Source: Treponema sp.
Lineage (GTDB): Bacteria; Spirochaetota; Spirochaetia; Treponematales; Breznakiellaceae
Direction of reading: 5' to 3'
DNA length: 36,749 bases
NCBI GenBank assembly: GCA_031256035.1
Contig: JAIRRJ010000004.1
Location: 1-36,749, forward strand
Part shown: positions 26,034 through 34,308 of the stretch, piece by piece
Position numbering within the stretch: the first letter of the stretch is position 1
Layout of the letters: every line of letters starts with the position of its first letter
Notes under the pieces: model-generated
The model's database searches: none
What the model saw: the letters and a program-made list of their open reading frames with translations, nothing else
Told to the model about the DNA's origin: nothing
Made by a program: the position numbers and the translations under genes

Positions 26034-28031
26034 ATGGGAGCAATTGATCTGCCCAAAAGCCCGAATGTATTTCATCCGGAAAAACCAAGCGCCGTAGGTT
26101 CACGGAATTCATTAGCCCAGGAATACCGCGATCAACAGGCTGAAGTTAATTTATTACTGGAGGAGGAAACCAATAAAGTTATCCACCACCTGACAGCAAA
26201 ACTGCCCAAGGACGTTCTTGAACGCCTTGACATCATGGGCAGCATGAAAGAAAAGCTGTACAACTACTTCAACCAGAATTACCAGAACATGTTCAACCGT
26301 TACATGGTAACGAGTGAAGATGAAATGGTCAAAAAAGTCAGGAACTTTATTGACAAGGAAGAGACCAAGGTTCTGACCAGGTATACGCCGAAAGAAATAG
26401 CCGATCTTCTTGACGCCGTAGGCGGCGCCGACAAGTTCAACACCGGCGAAGTTGAAAAATCAGTCGTGAATATGTACGGCCACTTGCAGGGGCATATTCA
26501 GAGGGGCGTCAACGAACTTGAAACCCACACGAACAGCATCCTCCGCCAGAAGACCGACACCGGCGCTTTTGTCCGCGGTGAGAATGCCTATTCAATCGTA
26601 AAATGCGCTTTCAAGGATAACCAGTTAAAGCCCAAGACCGTAACCGATGTAAAGCTTTCAGTCAATATTCTGGACTCCGAGCTTATAAGCCCGATTTTCC
26701 ATTATCAGGTTACCGTTGAGTACCTTATCAAGGACCTTATTTCCAAGCACATCATCGACAGCATCGACAAGCTGATTGAACAGCTTAAAGACGACAGGAT
26801 CGACCAGGGGCTTGAAGAACTTACCGACAGCGAGCTTATTTTCGGCAAGATCAACCGGGTGGAAAATTTCACCGATGATAACTCCGGTGAAGCCAAATCC
26901 AAGCGCTATGCTTACATTGCCAAAGCGCTCATGGAAAGGATCGCCGATCTCCGCGCTGAAATTGACCCCGAAACATTTGACGCCCTTAACGTCCGTGAAA
27001 ACATCAAGAAAATCGTCGATATGGAAAATATCCGTAACCGCGGCTTTAACACGGCAATTAACTCCATTACAGCCATTCTTGACACTTCCAAGATGGGGTA
27101 TCAGTACATTGAAAACCTCAAGAACGGGCGCGAAGTCATCATCCGCGAATACGAAGACACCGATGCCGCCCATCTGCCTGACGAACGGTATCAAATCAAG
27201 CTGCGCTACTTTGACAACGCCCAGTTGATTGAAGACCGCAAGGCATACGATGTGCAGATTAAGAGCTTTGAGACCGAAGTTCAGCATCTGTGGGACATTC
27301 TGGAAGTCATTTATCAGGATTCAAAGAGCTTCTTCCATGTCAATGATTATGACGATCTTGCCAAAAAGAGCAAAAACAGGATACGCAAGCTCATTAAGGA
27401 AAAAACAGGCGAGCCTTTGTACGAAGATATCGCCAAGGTTTGGGACGAGATTTCATTTGTCAAACCCGCCGAAACCGAAGTGGAAAAATCAAACCGCACC
27501 TATGTCTATGAAAAAGACAGGATTCGCACCAGAACCATCAGGATGAGGGACAGGCTTAAACAGATGTACACTTATCTGTACCCGATTGAAAGGCGGGTCA
27601 TGGAAGACAGGCTCTCTTGGCTCGAAAAGGAATACTACCGGTTTGAATACATGATCAACCCGTACCACCTCCAGCCCGGCATCCTCCTCGATGTGGATAT
27701 TACATCCATCAAGCGGAAAAAAGCCACTTTGGACGCTATGGCGAACGTACTCAACGAATTCCTCCACGGAGTTTCAAAGGGCTTCCAGGATGCTGCTTTT
27801 GCGTCTTTCAGCCGCAGAAGGTCAACCGTAAGGGAAGACATCAATCAGTCTTTCAGCAGCACAGTTGATTCAGAGGCTGAAGCTGCCGTTCCTGCCGCTG
27901 CTCCTAAACCAAGGCCGGCAATAGCGGCTCCCAAAGCAGCGCCGAAGAAGAAACCCGGAGTGGTCGATTCCAAAGCAAAAGCAAAGGCCAAAAAATCTGG
28001 CCGCGGCGGATCTCAAATTGCGGAACTCTAA
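26034..28031 (+). CDS. cfpA: Cytoplasmic filament protein A
   Basis: This 665-residue protein matches the treponemal CfpA that forms the cytoplasmic filament ribbon under the flagella (T. pallidum CfpA is of similar size). I recognise the family start [16 protein letters not shown]. The body is almost entirely helical and charged, with long coiled-coil-prone segments (for example [47 protein letters not shown]) and no signal or membrane segment. The last 50 residues are low-complexity and rich in Ala, Pro and Lys ([19 protein letters not shown]), probably disordered. AAGGAG is 6 bases before the ATG. A strong terminator follows, so its mRNA can be abundant independently of the downstream pair. 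Confidence 0.88.
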
Positions 28032-28068: not shown

Positions 28069-28098
28069 GCCCCCGAAGTATTATTCGGGGGCTTTTTT
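28069..28098 (+). terminator. Rho-independent terminator after cfpA
   Basis: GCCCCCGAA (28069-28077) pairs perfectly with TTCGGGGGC (28084-28092), loop GTATTA, followed by six T. I see no clear promoter between it and the next gene, so the HPr-like/PPDK-like pair may depend on read-through. Confidence 0.92.
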
Positions 28099-28124: not shown

Positions 28125-29108
28125 ATGACACCTGAAAATAATCTTGAGGTGCTGTCCACCCGTACTGGTTTTAACAATGCTGTCCGGCATATTCAAAAAA
28201 CAATGGGGATAGCATCGGAAAAAGGAAATCTTGGCGACATTCTTTACAAGATGGAAGATGAGGAACTTTCCGGCGGCAGAACCGGAATGCTTTTAAGAAT
28301 GTACCTTATTGATAAACTTGGTTACAAAACCGCATCCACCAACCTTGTTTCTGTTGCCGCCGATATGTCAAAGCTGGCGCAGGAATTTCAAAAATGGAAA
28401 GGCGTTGATTTGGTCGCCGCATATCATCATCCTGAGCTTGGCCTTTTGGTGGCGAATCCCAAAATTGCGGAAGAGCTTGCCGGCTTTGGCGAAATGCGTA
28501 AGCGCGAACTTTTGGCAGTCTATGCCGGTCTTCAGGGAAAGGAAGCCGATGAAAATTGCCAAAAGGCGGCAGAGCTTGCCCTCAGCGCATTTGAAGGCGC
28601 AAAAGTAAATGTTCCCTCTGCTTTAACAAAGGGAAATTTTGCCGCCGCCAAAATTTCAAAACCAAAAAAAGAAACCGAAGCCAAGCCAAAGAAAACCGCA
28701 GCAGTTAAAGGCAAAGCCGGAGCCAAGGCTGCCCCGGCGGCTAAAGCCGCGCCTGCGCCAAAAGCCGGTTCAGGGCCGGTAAAAATGACACCCAGATACG
28801 CGGTAGTGGTTCAAAACGAACTCTTTCATAACGGAAATGTGGAGGCATGGAAGCGGATTGTCGCAAGTTACAAGGCAAAAAATACCGGATTAGATGTCTA
28901 TATTTACTACGAGGGAGAGCGGATTCTGGACATCAATTCATTGTTTAAGTGGGGGAAAGTAAAACATGGCAGCGCCATTGAGTTTGCCGTAGCCGGACAT
29001 GAAATTCAGGATGTGGCAAAATTGCAGCGTTATCTTGCTCAGGGGGCAAGCCACCAATTTGAAGCATTCCTTCGCGGACCGGTAAACTCGGTTCTGAAAT
29101 TATTCTAA
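28125..29108 (+). CDS. Two-domain protein with C-terminal HPr-like domain, unknown function
   Basis: This 327-residue cytoplasmic protein starts at 28125 after AAGGAGG. The N-terminal domain (1-165) is helical and unrecognised. Residues 178-218 form a Lys/Ala/Pro-rich linker (KPKKTAAVKGKAGAKAAP). The C-terminal domain (222-327) resembles HPr by eye: a first strand YAVVVQN followed by His235 in the place of the phosphorylatable HPr His15, a helix (EAWKRIVASYK), strands LDVYIYYEGE, then SLFKWGKVKHGSAIEFAVAG and a final helix. Ser272 would correspond to HPr Ser46. The Arg of the HPr HxRP motif is missing. Fourteen bases later begins a PPDK-like gene whose catalytic domain belongs to the same phosphotransfer superfamily as PTS enzyme I. 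The HPr assignment is tentative. Confidence 0.7.
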   Translation: MTPENNLEVLSTRTGFNNAVRHIQKTMGIASEKGNLGDILYKMEDEELSGGRTGMLLRMYLIDKLGYKTASTNLVSVAADMSKLAQEFQKWKGVDLVAAYHHPELGLLVANPKIAEELAGFGEMRKRELLAVYAGLQGKEADENCQKAAELALSAFEGAKVNVPSALTKGNFAAAKISKPKKETEAKPKKTAAVKGKAGAKAAPAAKAAPAPKAGSGPVKMTPRYAVVVQNELFHNGNVEAWKRIVASYKAKNTGLDVYIYYEGERILDINSLFKWGKVKHGSAIEFAVAGHEIQDVAKLQRYLAQGASHQFEAFLRGPVNSVLKLF

Positions 29109-29122
29109 CATAAGGAAAATAT

Positions 29123-31801
29123 ATGGACTCAAGGATTCATTTTTTTAGCCAGAAAAACTTTATTTCTCAAAAAGACAAAGCGGATTTGCTGGGTATCCGC
29201 GGACGGCAGGCCAATGAATTTGCCGAACTGGAATTTCCAATTTTGCCGGGAATTATTCTGGATACCGAGATTGCATCCAGGATTGATCCAAAAGCTGTCA
29301 AAAAGGATATTCTTGAACTTTTGGGAAAGTGCGCCAAAATAGCCGGTAAAAATTTCGGAGACAAAGACAATCCACTGCTCCTTAAAGTGGTTGTTTCTTC
29401 GAACTTGGCAATTAACACATACCCTGCGCTGCATAACTTCGGGCTTGTAAAGCCCACACAGGAAGGTTTCGCGAAATGGGTAGGCGCTGATTTTGCCGTC
29501 AATGAACTTTTGTTCATGATCAGGGGCATGCTGATAGTTGAAGAACGGATAAAGGAACTGGAAAAAAAGCCCAAGGAACAGGAGGATATTGCTTCAAAAA
29601 TAAAACTTCTGGGACGGCTTCTGGGTTTTTCCGGCCCTTCCAACGAACTGCACCAGAAAAAAGAACCTCCTCTTCCCGCAAAAAAATCCATCAAAGAATA
29701 CATGGACGAATACGCAAAATATTTCCCAAAGGGCTTTTTCGAAGATGCCGAAAGCCAGCTTCTTATAACCCTTGGCGAAATCTCCAGAATGCTCGACATG
29801 GATGATCAAAACGACAATGATACCGCGATTTTGATTCAGCCGATGGTTTACGGCAATTACGGCAAAGATTCCTGTTCAGGCCATTTTTACAGCCGCAATG
29901 TTATAACCGGGGAAAAAAGGCTCCAGGGAAGTTTTTTCCGGGGCAAATTCAACGAATCCGGCGCCGAGGGCCAGGAAATAAACAAGATAGATCAGGCATA
30001 TCTTAAACAGCTTGAAAAAATCGCATGGACGCTGGAAGACAGATTCAAGGAAATCCGCCAGATACGCTTTACCGTTGAGAACGGCAAACTTTGGCTGATT
30101 GAACAGCGGCTGGTTGATCAAAAATCAACCCAATCCGACCTTAAGCTTTTACTCGATCTTGCGAAGCGCAAAATCGTTGATCCTGCGTATGTAATAAAAG
30201 CGATTGATCCGGTAAGGCTCAATGAAATTCTCCACCCTGTTATTAATATGCCCAGCGTCAAGGGGTTAAGGTCATGGAAGGGTGGCATAGCGGGTGCGCC
30301 GGGAGCCGCCATAGGCAGGGTTTATTTCAGCACGAACGCCCTGCTTGATGCAAAGAAAGCAGCCATACAAAAGGGTGAGGATGACAAAACAATCCTTGTG
30401 CTGATGTCTTCCTTCGCAGAAGACGTGAAGGCTATCGAAGTAAGTACGGGGGTGTTGACAGCAGAAGGCGGCTATTCCGCCCACGCATCCGTAGTGGCGC
30501 GCCAGTACGGAAAGGTGTCCCTTGTCTCGCCGGCGCTTAAAATCAAGGGCAACAAGGCGACCTTGGGCGAATTCAGTTTTTCTGAAGGCGAATACATCAC
30601 CATTAACGTTCCGTTCTACGGCGAATCCACCGTATACAAGGGGGTGGCTGAACTCATAGAGCCGAATCCCAAAGAATCGGGATTGCTGGATTTCATTGAA
30701 CTGTCAAAAGGTTTCCTTAAGAAATTCCATGTCCGCTGTAATGCCGATACCCCGCGGGACGCGGCTCTTGCCTTAAGTTTCGGCGCGGAAGGCGTTGGCC
30801 TGTGCCGTACCGAGCATATGTTTTTCAAGGCTGATCGTATCAACGTATTCCGGGAGATGCTGGTTTCCGATGACAAGAAAGAACGGCAAAAAACCCTTGA
30901 TAAACTACAGGTTATGCAGAGGGAAGATTTTTACGGCATCATGAAAGTGATGGCGGGCAAGGAAGTAACGATCCGTCTTTTGGATTCGCCGCTCCATGAA
31001 TTTATGCCGCACAATGACGCTGAATTGACCGCTTTCATAGCCCATTTAACTAGGACAAAAAAGACCAAACCATCAAAAGCGGATATTGCCGCCCGTATTG
31101 AAACCCTGCATGAATTTAACCCCATGCTTGGACACCGCGGTTGCCGTATTGCAGTTTCGTATCCTGAGATTTACGCCATGCAGGTAAAAGCCATTTTTGA
31201 AGCCGCCTACAAACTGCGCTCCGAAAAGATTGATGTTCATCCTGAGATCATGGTTCCCATCGTTATGAACGCTTCGGAATTGAAACTCATCGCTTACGGA
31301 AAAAAGATCGAGGGGTCAAGCTATTCAGGAATCGTTGATATTGAAGAAGCGCTCAGGAAGGAAAAAAAGGCAAAAGAGGTGGAATACAAAATCGGCACCA
31401 TGATAGAGCTGCCTGCCGCCGCCCTCGGCGCCGGAGAAATTGCCAGATACGGACGTTTTTTCAGTTTCGGCACCAATGACCTTACCCAGACAACACTCGG
31501 TATTTCAAGGGACGATTTTACCGCTTTTATGCCGGATTATACCCTGTTCGACCTTATTGACGGTAATCCATTCAGCACGCTTGATTTTAGAGTGAAGGAG
31601 CTTATCGCCCTCGCAACCGACCGCGGGCGGCTTACGCGGCCTGACCTTGTCTGCGGCCTGTGCGGCGAGCATGGCGCAAATCCCGCCAATGTACGCTTCT
31701 GTATGGATGCCGGCCTAAACTATGTGTCATGTTCCCCGTACTCGGTGCCGATTGCGCTATTGGCGGTAGCTCAGGCGGAAATTGAGAAAGACGCAAAGTA
31801 G
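29123..31801 (+). CDS. ppdK: Pyruvate-phosphate-dikinase-like protein with degenerate ATP-grasp domain
   Basis: This 892-residue protein is collinear with PPDK, which interconverts pyruvate, ATP, phosphate with PEP, AMP and PPi. The swivelling domain has the catalytic His454 in GGYSAHASVVAR. The PEP/pyruvate barrel is intact: VRCNADTP, GVGLCRTEHMFF, LGHRGCR, GTMIELPAAALGA, FSFGTNDLTQTT and CGLCGEHGANP with the acid Cys. In contrast, residues that bind ATP in the Clostridium symbiosum enzyme are changed: Lys22 is Arg (GIRGRQANEF), Arg92 is Val (KVVVSSNL), the SMPGMMDT block is absent, and Glu323 is Arg (QIRFTVENGKL). AAGGAA is 7 bases before the ATG. It may therefore transfer phosphate from PEP without using ATP. 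It is followed by a strong terminator. Confidence 0.88.
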   Translation: MDSRIHFFSQKNFISQKDKADLLGIRGRQANEFAELEFPILPGIILDTEIASRIDPKAVKKDILELLGKCAKIAGKNFGDKDNPLLLKVVVSSNLAINTYPALHNFGLVKPTQEGFAKWVGADFAVNELLFMIRGMLIVEERIKELEKKPKEQEDIASKIKLLGRLLGFSGPSNELHQKKEPPLPAKKSIKEYMDEYAKYFPKGFFEDAESQLLITLGEISRMLDMDDQNDNDTAILIQPMVYGNYGKDSCSGHFYSRNVITGEKRLQGSFFRGKFNESGAEGQEINKIDQAYLKQLEKIAWTLEDRFKEIRQIRFTVENGKLWLIEQRLVDQKSTQSDLKLLLDLAKRKIVDPAYVIKAIDPVRLNEILHPVINMPSVKGLRSWKGGIAGAPGAAIGRVYFSTNALLDAKKAAIQKGEDDKTILVLMSSFAEDVKAIEVSTGVLTAEGGYSAHASVVARQYGKVSLVSPALKIKGNKATLGEFSFSEGEYITINVPFYGESTVYKGVAELIEPNPKESGLLDFIELSKGFLKKFHVRCNADTPRDAALALSFGAEGVGLCRTEHMFFKADRINVFREMLVSDDKKERQKTLDKLQVMQREDFYGIMKVMAGKEVTIRLLDSPLHEFMPHNDAELTAFIAHLTRTKKTKPSKADIAARIETLHEFNPMLGHRGCRIAVSYPEIYAMQVKAIFEAAYKLRSEKIDVHPEIMVPIVMNASELKLIAYGKKIEGSSYSGIVDIEEALRKEKKAKEVEYKIGTMIELPAAALGAGEIARYGRFFSFGTNDLTQTTLGISRDDFTAFMPDYTLFDLIDGNPFSTLDFRVKELIALATDRGRLTRPDLVCGLCGEHGANPANVRFCMDAGLNYVSCSPYSVPIALLAVAQAEIEKDAK

Positions 31802-31873: not shown

Positions 31874-32665
31874 TTACTCGAACTCGCCCTTAAAGCCCAT
31901 GGATTTCTCTACAATCGAAGTGATCAGATGAGCGGCTTTTTTTGCGTCCGCCTGCGGGACTTTGCGCTGTATGTTCAATGATTTTTCAAAGAAAGAGGCG
32001 ATGGACGTGTACACATCCGGGAGCTGGTAGAACACTACCGCAAAATTCGCCCCCATGGGTTTGAGAACGGTAAAGGAGCCGTAGGTTTCATTCGGCTCTT
32101 TTGCGACCATTATTTTGGTCTGATTGCTTGCGGTGATGATTTCCAGTTCGTTGTAGCGTTTTGGAATCTTTTCGCCTTCCGCCCTGCTGACAGGTTCCTC
32201 GTGTTTTTTCTCATAAGAGCCTGGCTCAACCAGAATAAACAGTTTTTTTCCGCCGGTAACGAATTGCAGTCCGGTATCGGTAACAAATATTTCTTTTACG
32301 CCGGCATAGGATACAATTTCGTAAATGGAATATGCGGTGTTTACGCTGAAGAACGATGAAATAATGTAACCGTGGGCAAACGGAAGTTTCCCCTGAGCGA
32401 AGGCGTCAAACAAATTGCGGGATTTTACATTGGAATCGAGAACATCACTGTGTTTTAACGATGAAGGCGGAGTGGTTTTTTTCTCCACAGCCGGCTTCTT
32501 TACTTCAATTTTTTTCGCCGCTGTTTTTTTAACCGCCGGTTTCTTTACAGCCGCTTTTTTGGCTACAGGCTTTTTCGCTGCGGGCTTTTTAACCGCAGGT
32601 TTTTTAGCAGCCGGCTTTTTTGCCGCAGGCTTCTTCACTTTGGTTTTTGGTTTAGCAGTCGCCAT
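31874..32665 (-). CDS. Protein with histone-H1-like Lys/Ala/Pro repeats and unknown C-terminal domain
   Basis: This 263-residue protein begins with MATAKPKTK and about ten pentapeptide units of the type KKPAA or KKPAV (residues 11-60), like eukaryotic H1 tails and bacterial histone-like proteins; this part should bind nucleic acid or another polyanion. The C-terminal domain (about 70-263) is a mixed alpha/beta fold (GYIISSFFSVNTAYSIYEI, VKEIFVTDTGLQFVTGG, MGANFAVVFYQLPDVYTS) that I cannot place. Two ATGs are adjacent; the second (32665) has better spacing from AAGGGGG. The frame stays open upstream, but that part holds the structured leader. It has its own promoter with an approximately 120-base leader. 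Confidence 0.8.
   Translation of the reverse strand: MATAKPKTKVKKPAAKKPAAKKPAVKKPAAKKPVAKKAAVKKPAVKKTAAKKIEVKKPAVEKKTTPPSSLKHSDVLDSNVKSRNLFDAFAQGKLPFAHGYIISSFFSVNTAYSIYEIVSYAGVKEIFVTDTGLQFVTGGKKLFILVEPGSYEKKHEEPVSRAEGEKIPKRYNELEIITASNQTKIMVAKEPNETYGSFTVLKPMGANFAVVFYQLPDVYTSIASFFEKSLNIQRKVPQADAKKAAHLITSIVEKSMGFKGEFE
32486..32635 (-). repeat. Imperfect 15-bp tandem repeats encoding KKPAA-type pentapeptides
   Basis: Ten consecutive 15-bp units encode KKPAA, KKPAV, KKAAV, KKTAA and similar. On the plus strand they appear as repeats of GGCTTTTT and TTAACCG/TTAGCAG types. The units differ at third codon positions, so the array is not a very recent expansion. Confidence 0.85.
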
Positions 32666-33909: not shown

Positions 33910-33938
33910 TTGGAATTCTTTCCCATTACTGCTATAAT
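33910..33938 (+). promoter_or_regulatory. Promoter of bactofilin gene (leaderless type)
   Basis: TTGGAA (33910-33915), 17-base spacer, perfect TATAAT (33933-33938), then 7 bases to the ATG at 33946. No Shine-Dalgarno site. Confidence 0.65.
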
Positions 33939-33945
33939 TTACACA

Positions 33946-34308
33946 ATGACTGAAGTATATAACGATTTTCTGGAAGATACGGATTTTGATACAATCCTGT
34001 CTTCCGATATAGATTTTACAGGAAACCTGCATTTTGAGAAGCCTTTTTTGATTAGAGGAAAGGTATCCGGGGAGATCAACTCTACCGGAGTGTTGGTTAT
34101 AGATGAGGATGCGGTGGTAAACGCCAATATTAACGCTCTGCGGGTCTTAATTCGCGGGCAGGTGAAGGGTAATGTAACCGCCTCGGAGAAAGTTGAAGTT
34201 ACTCTGACAGGCAGGCTGGTCGGAAATGTAACGTCCCCTGAAATTTTTATGGAAACCGGCTGCATTTTTAACGGCCGCTGTACCATGATTGGGAAAGGCT
34301 CTGAATGA
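33946..34308 (+). CDS. Bactofilin (polymer-forming cytoskeletal protein)
   Basis: This 120-residue protein has a central beta-helix (about 22-115) with the repeating glycine/hydrophobic pattern of bactofilins (LHFEKPFLIRGKVSGEI, NANINALRVLIRGQVKGNV, ASEKVEVTLTGRLVGNV). Bactofilins polymerise without nucleotide and localise cell-shape or wall enzymes. The start is the ATG at 33946; a TTG upstream at 33910 keeps the frame open but is the -35 box. The stop overlaps the start of the TPR gene (ATGA). It is the second cytoskeletal gene of the window, 6 kb from cfpA. Confidence 0.92.
   Translation: MTEVYNDFLEDTDFDTILSSDIDFTGNLHFEKPFLIRGKVSGEINSTGVLVIDEDAVVNANINALRVLIRGQVKGNVTASEKVEVTLTGRLVGNVTSPEIFMETGCIFNGRCTMIGKGSE

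Follow-up and report, generated by a model that had tools for sequence, protein, structure and literature searches.

The gene pair downstream of cfpA

The window analysed here is a stretch of 36,749 nucleotides from a Treponema sp. genome (contig JAIRRJ010000004.1), and this report concerns two adjacent genes on its forward strand. The first (28125–29108) encodes P0001, a protein of 327 residues with two predicted HPr-like folds in tandem. The second (29123–31801) encodes P0002, a protein of 892 residues that resembles pyruvate, phosphate dikinase (PPDK), uses phosphoenolpyruvate (PEP) and has no usable ATP site. The spacer between them is 14 bases long. Upstream of the pair lies cfpA (26034–28031, forward strand), the gene of the cytoplasmic filament protein CfpA, whose 665-residue product scores 1196 bits on NCBIfam NF040882 against a curated cut-off of 500. 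A preliminary description of this DNA had proposed that the pair forms a PEP-driven phosphorelay; the gene positions, the 14-base gap and the placement downstream of cfpA that it gave are all borne out by the coordinates. Elsewhere the same genome encodes HPr, PPDK and Enzyme I of the ordinary kind, so the pair is additional to them. With such an HPr and Enzyme I already present, an ordinary phosphotransferase system (PTS) was rejected as the identity of the pair.

A terminator-like hairpin of nine pairs followed by TTTTTT lies between cfpA and the HPr-like gene (28069–28092, forward strand). It is a consensus match alone, of a kind found 12 times in the region against 8.4 expected in shuffles. 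Its position would allow the three products to be made in unequal amounts, and the hairpin perhaps sets a high ratio of CfpA to its partners.

The PPDK-like protein has lost the ATP site and kept the PEP site

P0002 resembles PPDK in its domain order, its phospho-histidine domain and its complete PEP active site. A degenerate ATP-grasp half (about residues 1–340; 29123–30142) is followed by a swivelling phospho-histidine domain (about residues 389–507; 30287–30643; Pfam PEP-utilizers, 30.8 bits, with the PPDK fragment 2fm4 matching over 389–507) and a PEP-binding domain with intact active-site residues (residues 533–886; 30719–31780; Pfam PEP-utilizers_C, 228 bits), all on the forward strand.

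The ATP site was compared between 136 PPDK-like sequences and 21 canonical PPDK paralogues of the same phylum. The 136 were drawn from two collections, in which some genomes may occur twice; pieces shorter than 800 residues were left out except for three from the genus g52, and the divergent copy of genome G407 is absent. As ATP-site residues we take K22, R92, D321, E323 and Q335, with their numbering and roles as in Clostridium symbiosum PPDK. None of the PPDK-like sequences keeps any of the five, whereas all 21 canonical paralogues keep every one. The window protein has R, V, Q, R and E at these places, the Q335 place being read as Q in one alignment and E in two others, with the HMMER alignment fitting E. 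In the SMPG loop, none of the 136 keeps the Pro or the Gly, whereas R337 is kept in 110. Pfam PPDK_N reaches 22.6 bits on P0002, below its cut-off of 27. The ATP deficiency ascribed to this protein in the preliminary description is thus confirmed by the sub-threshold domain match and by the replacement of all five residues.

The PEP side of the enzyme is complete. H455, R561, R617, D620, N768, D769 and C831 are kept in all 136 sequences and E745 in 135, with one X; T453 is S or A in all of them. His454 of P0002 (codon 30482–30484, forward strand) corresponds to PPDK His455 and is the phospho-histidine, as had been proposed.

On the PPDK model TIGR01828, the window protein scores 639.4 bits, the T. 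pallidum protein 609.1 and the three g52 proteins 490.6–537.6, all short of the cut-off of 843.45, against 1333 bits for the canonical paralogue of the same genome. When 46 PPDK-like sequences and 21 canonical ones are placed in a tree, the two kinds separate with 100/100 support. P0002 differs from PPDK both in its clade, which is distinct from that of the canonical spirochaete PPDKs, and in its site for ATP or AMP and pyrophosphate (PPi), which is lost phylum-wide or absent. Enzyme I also has phospho-histidine and PEP domains, and P0002 is closer to PPDK than to it (TIGR01828 639 bits; TIGR01417 97.5 bits, with a cut-off of 341.7). The N-terminal HPr-binding domain of Enzyme I (PF05524) has no match in P0002 or in the three short g52 proteins, whereas the Enzyme I of the same genome matches it. 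By the membership tests run, the putative donor is neither Enzyme I nor PPDK.

One highly diverged PPDK-like protein (locus L279 of G407) has a shortened N-terminal half, keeps the phospho-histidine and adjoins the HPr-like gene and cfpA. Its gene lies in two frames and is cut by the contig end; T and L occupy the K22 and R92 places.

A lineage without the ATP half

Three genomes of one genus, g52 (G141, G143 and G145; loci L032, L033 and L034), have no ATP half and retain the HPr-like and PPDK-like genes as a pair. The short PPDK-like frames, of 548–587 codons, lie directly 3' of the HPr-like gene; Pfam finds the mobile and PEP domains in them and does not find PPDK_N. In this genus cfpA carries an internal stop in G141 (C1:2249885-2251657), is present as fragments in G144 (C9) and gives no match in G143 or G145. 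Since the pair persists without the ATP half and with cfpA broken or unfound, the unit needs no nucleotide domain and can outlive CfpA. Stops or fragments of cfpA also occur in G154 (C78), and G148 has a partial, diverged match (C34). The HPr-like gene has no match in G144, G148 or G154 and is kept in G141.

Elsewhere the degenerate ATP-grasp half is retained, in 133 of the 136 aligned sequences, so it possibly holds another ligand. This retention, together with the membership of CfpA in a three-gene co-inheritance described below, would suit an arrangement in which P0002 passes its phosphate to some third acceptor, a small molecule or CfpA itself, and the HPr-like protein is a structural subunit. 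The persistence of the pair without the ATP half in the three g52 genomes counts against such an acceptor, and a conserved histidine in an HPr fold is a simpler outlet; we regard this explanation as quite improbable.

The T. pallidum and T. denticola counterparts

The same three genes, including T. pallidum TP0746, are carried by locus L064 of the complete genome G204. If the protein is taken to be 901 residues long, as in PMC3373638, L064 agrees exactly with the published TP0746 residues (A869, P655, E501) and nucleotide positions (810772, 811414); a length of 885 is given in PMC10013896. The protein has been described as the most likely producer of ATP from PEP, AMP and diphosphate (PMC10013896). 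The five ATP-site places of the G204 protein are occupied by R, V, E, R and E. A separate PPDK_N-domain protein was found in 22 of 24 genomes checked, and at the search threshold PPDK_N has no match in G204 and, as the only other case, in G453. The loss of the five residues and the lack of a PPDK_N match in G204 make the published ATP-making role doubtful, and judging from these residues the T. pallidum 'PPDK' is probably not a PPDK. G453 has all three genes, and an ordinary PPDK may be missing there too.

If P0002 had kept the activity of a PPDK, forming ATP from PEP, AMP and PPi at a remodelled nucleotide site as published for TP0746, its overall similarity to that family (639 bits for the window protein and 609 for that of T. 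pallidum) and the statement in PMC10013896 would be accounted for. Several findings go against it: all 136 sequences have lost the five ATP-site residues as well as Pro and Gly in the SMPG loop, the score falls below the cut-off of 843 that the canonical paralogue of the same genome passes with 1333, the ATP half is wholly missing from three g52 genomes, and 22 of 24 genomes encode a separate PPDK_N-domain protein. This makes a remaining PPDK activity very improbable.

By gene order, the HPr-like gene would correspond to TP0747 in T. pallidum and to TDE0843 in T. denticola, and the PPDK-like gene to TDE0844. The tag TP0747, in that spelling, was not found in the open-licence literature searched. 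Published work on T. denticola agrees with the proposal made below. Among 16 major proteins of its envelope fraction, band 1 is TDE0844 (called PPDK) and band 3 is TDE0842, CfpA (PMC3931704); such a location is unexpected for a soluble glycolytic enzyme. TDE0842, TDE0843 and TDE0844 are jointly repressed when other oral species are present (PMC3914990). When cfpA is mutated in T. denticola, the filaments are missing, and filamentation and chromosome condensation are seen (PMC3398590).

The HPr-like protein contains two predicted HPr folds

Structure prediction places two HPr-like folds in P0001, at residues 67–160 (28323–28604) and 221–313 (28785–29063), both on the forward strand. The predicted order of elements is β-α-β-β-α-β-α, forming the open-faced β sandwich of HPr. 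In structure comparison, the window model has HPr-family proteins in its first 21 rows and the model of an orthologue has them in its first 31; both halves of P0001 appear among these rows. The resemblance of the C-terminal domain to HPr, noted in the preliminary description, is therefore recovered in the predicted folds of two orthologues.

Profile comparison gave a faint echo of the same relation. Aligned by hhalign with a broad HPr set, the C-terminal domain gives a weak match (Prob 4, or 22 with other settings) that is collinear over 72 columns and places His235 on the active-site histidine of HPr. Column shuffles reached the score in 3 of 400 trials, with at least 60 columns aligned in none; block shuffles reached it in 12 of 200, one of them with at least 60 columns. 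A narrow HPr set and a low-diversity alignment of the domain failed, giving 7 columns at Prob 0.3. The N-terminal half gave nothing useful in hhalign against either the C-terminal half or HPr, so the first HPr-like fold is a result of structure prediction only. Sub-threshold matches to DUF6465 and ubiquitin were dropped. A scan of a viral contig collection with P0001 found no relative, and Pfam lists no IIA, Enzyme I or sugar-specific domain in it.

Several observations weigh against an HPr-type carrier. The Foldseek E-values of the HPr matches are all above 0.01. Searches with HMMER and against Pfam and PDB sequences, using P0001 and a 30-row alignment of the C-terminal domain, gave no HPr match; the HPr family hidden Markov model (HMM), PF00381 (PTS-HPr), is not listed for P0001 or for any of the 30 C-terminal domains. 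The active-site signature also differs: H-N-G-N stands in place of the H-x-R-P of HPr in all 82 rows of the family and order alignment described next, which confirms the missing Arg after His that the preliminary description had pointed out. The putative carrier is accordingly HPr-like by predicted fold and by its histidine only, and not by signature or HMM.

His235 is invariant

P0001 contains both His235 (codon 28827–28829, forward strand) and the SLFKWGKVKHGSAIEF segment on which the comparison with HPr had been built. In the model, whose confidence right around this residue is moderate to low, His235 directly precedes the helix of residues 236–252, as the phosphorylated histidine does in HPr, and so takes the active-site place in front of helix A. 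The residue ranges matched in the structure comparison suggest that it falls on HPr position 14 or 15, the HPr histidine being His15. All 82 rows from the family and order have a histidine here. With 20 deep-phylum loci added, it is kept in 101 of 102; the sole exception (L233) is a split reading frame whose in-frame domain piece keeps the histidine. Conservation of His235 among homologues, on which the preliminary description had staked its proposal, is thus complete in 102 rows if the split frame is counted by its in-frame piece. The surroundings are almost as constrained: NELFHNGNVEAWK is invariant in the 82 rows except for one D in place of E, and every one of the 82 has the LFHNGNVEAWK and LF-WGKVK stretches unchanged.

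At the corresponding place of the first HPr-like fold, residues 78–82, there is no conserved histidine. His102, beside Pro103 (codon 28428–28430), is conserved in 90 of 102 rows; it lies on a hairpin of the first fold, off the active-site place.

The extent of the conservation may be read in another way. In Crh the active-site histidine of the HPr fold is replaced and the protein works by binding. P0001 might likewise be a non-phosphorylated adaptor that uses its invariant NELFHNGNVEAWK surface to dock with the PPDK-like protein or with CfpA, the PPDK-like protein being a PEP or pyruvate sensor that signals through its own phospho-histidine. The invariant stretch around His235 far exceeds an active site, H-N-G-N is without the HPr arginine, and one of the two folds already has no histidine, as an adaptor would lead one to expect. 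An adaptor does not explain why a residue at the HPr phosphorylation place is never replaced in 102 rows, and the complete PEP-to-histidine site of the donor needs an outlet. We consider a pure adaptor unlikely, while giving it real weight.

Distribution and co-inheritance with cfpA

The cfpA-associated pair is conserved across much of the phylum. P0001 occurs in 104 of 195 family genomes and 119 of 291 sampled order genomes. Of 296 genomes sampled from the phylum, 105 have its C-terminal domain, a count that includes a marginal match at a contig end (G546). CfpA occurs in 122 of the 291 and 110 of the 296. In the order sample, both P0001 and cfpA are present in 115 genomes, P0001 only in 4, cfpA only in 7 and neither in 165, figures that are non-independent because the genomes share ancestry. 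The same holds for the phylum sample, in which 101 genomes have CfpA, the HPr-like and the PPDK-like protein together, 12 have part of the set and 183 have none; here the PPDK-like protein was scored with an N-terminal query cut at a chosen E of 2.2e-34, which misses the truncated G141 and the divergent G407 proteins. These two account for part of the 12 and carry PPDK-like genes of another form; five more have cfpA alone, two are without P0001 only, two are without cfpA only, and G550 has the PPDK-like half only.

Seventeen genomes were compared for their PPDK-like proteins. The five with P0001 have orthologues at 59–65% identity. Among the twelve without it, the best matches of eleven are 35–44% identical, the level of the canonical paralogue ('canonical' being judged here by identity and score rather than by residues), and G142 has Enzyme I-like ones only.

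The preliminary description had asked whether the pair is conserved beside cfpA in other treponemes. Of 82 Treponematales loci, 74 have the order cfpA, HPr-like gene, PPDK-like gene, as do 74 of the 80 best GTDB loci out of 339 and 17 of 20 from deeper in the phylum; some genomes are shared between the first two sets. Nine of the 17 exceptions are upstream contig ends and L051 is cut downstream; G218, G372, G415 and g52 are among the real departures. In G218 and G372 cfpA lies apart from the pair, and in G415, G421, G443 and G466 all three genes are on separate contigs yet present together.

This co-inheritance bears on the simplest objection, namely that P0001 resembles HPr through a chance β-α-β arrangement and that the genes are neighbours by functionless ancestral linkage. 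HPr tops both structure-comparison lists, with both halves of P0001 among the rows, and the three genes are inherited together even when unlinked and are mostly absent together. A coincidence of this kind is highly improbable.

Second, diverged copies of cfpA lie away from the pair in several family genomes (G139, C1:845014-847005; also G072, G004 and G188). Downstream of the pair in the window, a Lys/Ala-rich open reading frame on the reverse strand (31874–32662) has an N-terminus like that of the Hc2 histone (Pfam HC2, 34.9 bits, below the cut-off of 40), fused to a second stretch that is conserved among relatives. Among the 80 GTDB loci compared for gene order, 50 have it next to the pair in convergent orientation. 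A second cytoskeletal gene, for a bactofilin (33910–34308, forward strand; Pfam 96 bits), lies about 2 kb downstream of the pair.

A proposed PEP-driven phosphotransfer unit

We propose, with a probability of about 0.58, that the two proteins form a dedicated spirochaete unit for PEP-driven phosphotransfer, running from PEP to His454 to His235 and tied to the CfpA filament. The intact PEP and phospho-histidine sites, the lost ATP site, the predicted HPr fold, the invariant histidine and the co-inheritance with cfpA support this interpretation. The fold and His235 results and the conservation of the pair beside cfpA favour the phosphorelay of the preliminary description; the transfer itself, its direction and any action on CfpA are inferred. 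The additional HPr-like fold in the N-terminal half, the phylum-wide loss of the ATP site, the lineage without the ATP half and the conflict with the published T. pallidum annotation go beyond that description.

In the proposed unit, the PPDK-like protein would take the phosphate of PEP onto His454 and release pyruvate, as in PPDK and Enzyme I, a step that the conserved site strongly implies. Transfer to AMP and PPi would no longer be possible, since the nucleotide site is dead or missing. The swivelling histidine domain would instead pass the phosphate to His235 in the second HPr-like domain of its neighbour; this is likely, given an invariant histidine in a predicted HPr fold and a co-inherited partner. 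The first HPr-like domain, which has no such histidine, is probably a docking or regulatory fold. Our guess, prompted by the co-inheritance with cfpA, is that the carrier, through its phosphorylation state, either informs the CfpA filament of the PEP/pyruvate (glycolytic) status or governs how the filament is assembled or anchored.

The closest parallel is the PTS, in which Enzyme I and HPr likewise form a paired donor and carrier, and PEP phosphorylates a histidine on a swivelling domain that hands the phosphate to a histidine at the start of helix A in the HPr fold. PtsP and NPr of the nitrogen PTS are a similar pair. The present unit differs in a donor without the Enzyme I HPr-binding domain and in a carrier with two HPr-like folds and H-N-G-N rather than H-x-R-P. 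Tandem or degenerate HPr folds serve as docking or regulatory modules in the multi-domain phosphocarriers FruB/FPr and DhaM and in the histidine-less Crh. Unlike FruB/FPr and DhaM, P0001 has no IIA, Enzyme I or sugar-specific Pfam domain and is linked to a cytoskeletal gene: cfpA is the direct neighbour and phyletic companion of the pair. The portions of the literature consulted contain no link of CfpA to PEP or phosphotransfer, and those of the open-licence literature no description of a PPDK and HPr-like pair beside cfpA.

To our knowledge, the partners of the spirochaete filament are poorly known. Among the references of PMC3398590 is a tomography study on novel filament components with bridging and anchoring roles, and P0001 and P0002 could conceivably be among such components.

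More broadly, and on odds that we put below even, much of the Spirochaetota may have a second, PPDK-derived PEP phosphorelay, in which an ATP-less PPDK and a tandem HPr-fold carrier couple glycolytic PEP to the CfpA cytoskeleton; its proteins might be unnamed bridging or anchoring parts of the ribbon, and the T. pallidum 'PPDK' would be unable to make ATP. The published assumption on the energy supply of T. pallidum, with TP0746 as a maker of ATP (PMC10013896), is put in question. If the proposed unit is real, it would be a donor and carrier pair with PPDK in place of Enzyme I as the donor, the same chemistry built twice from related parts, and it would link central metabolism to the spirochaete filament.

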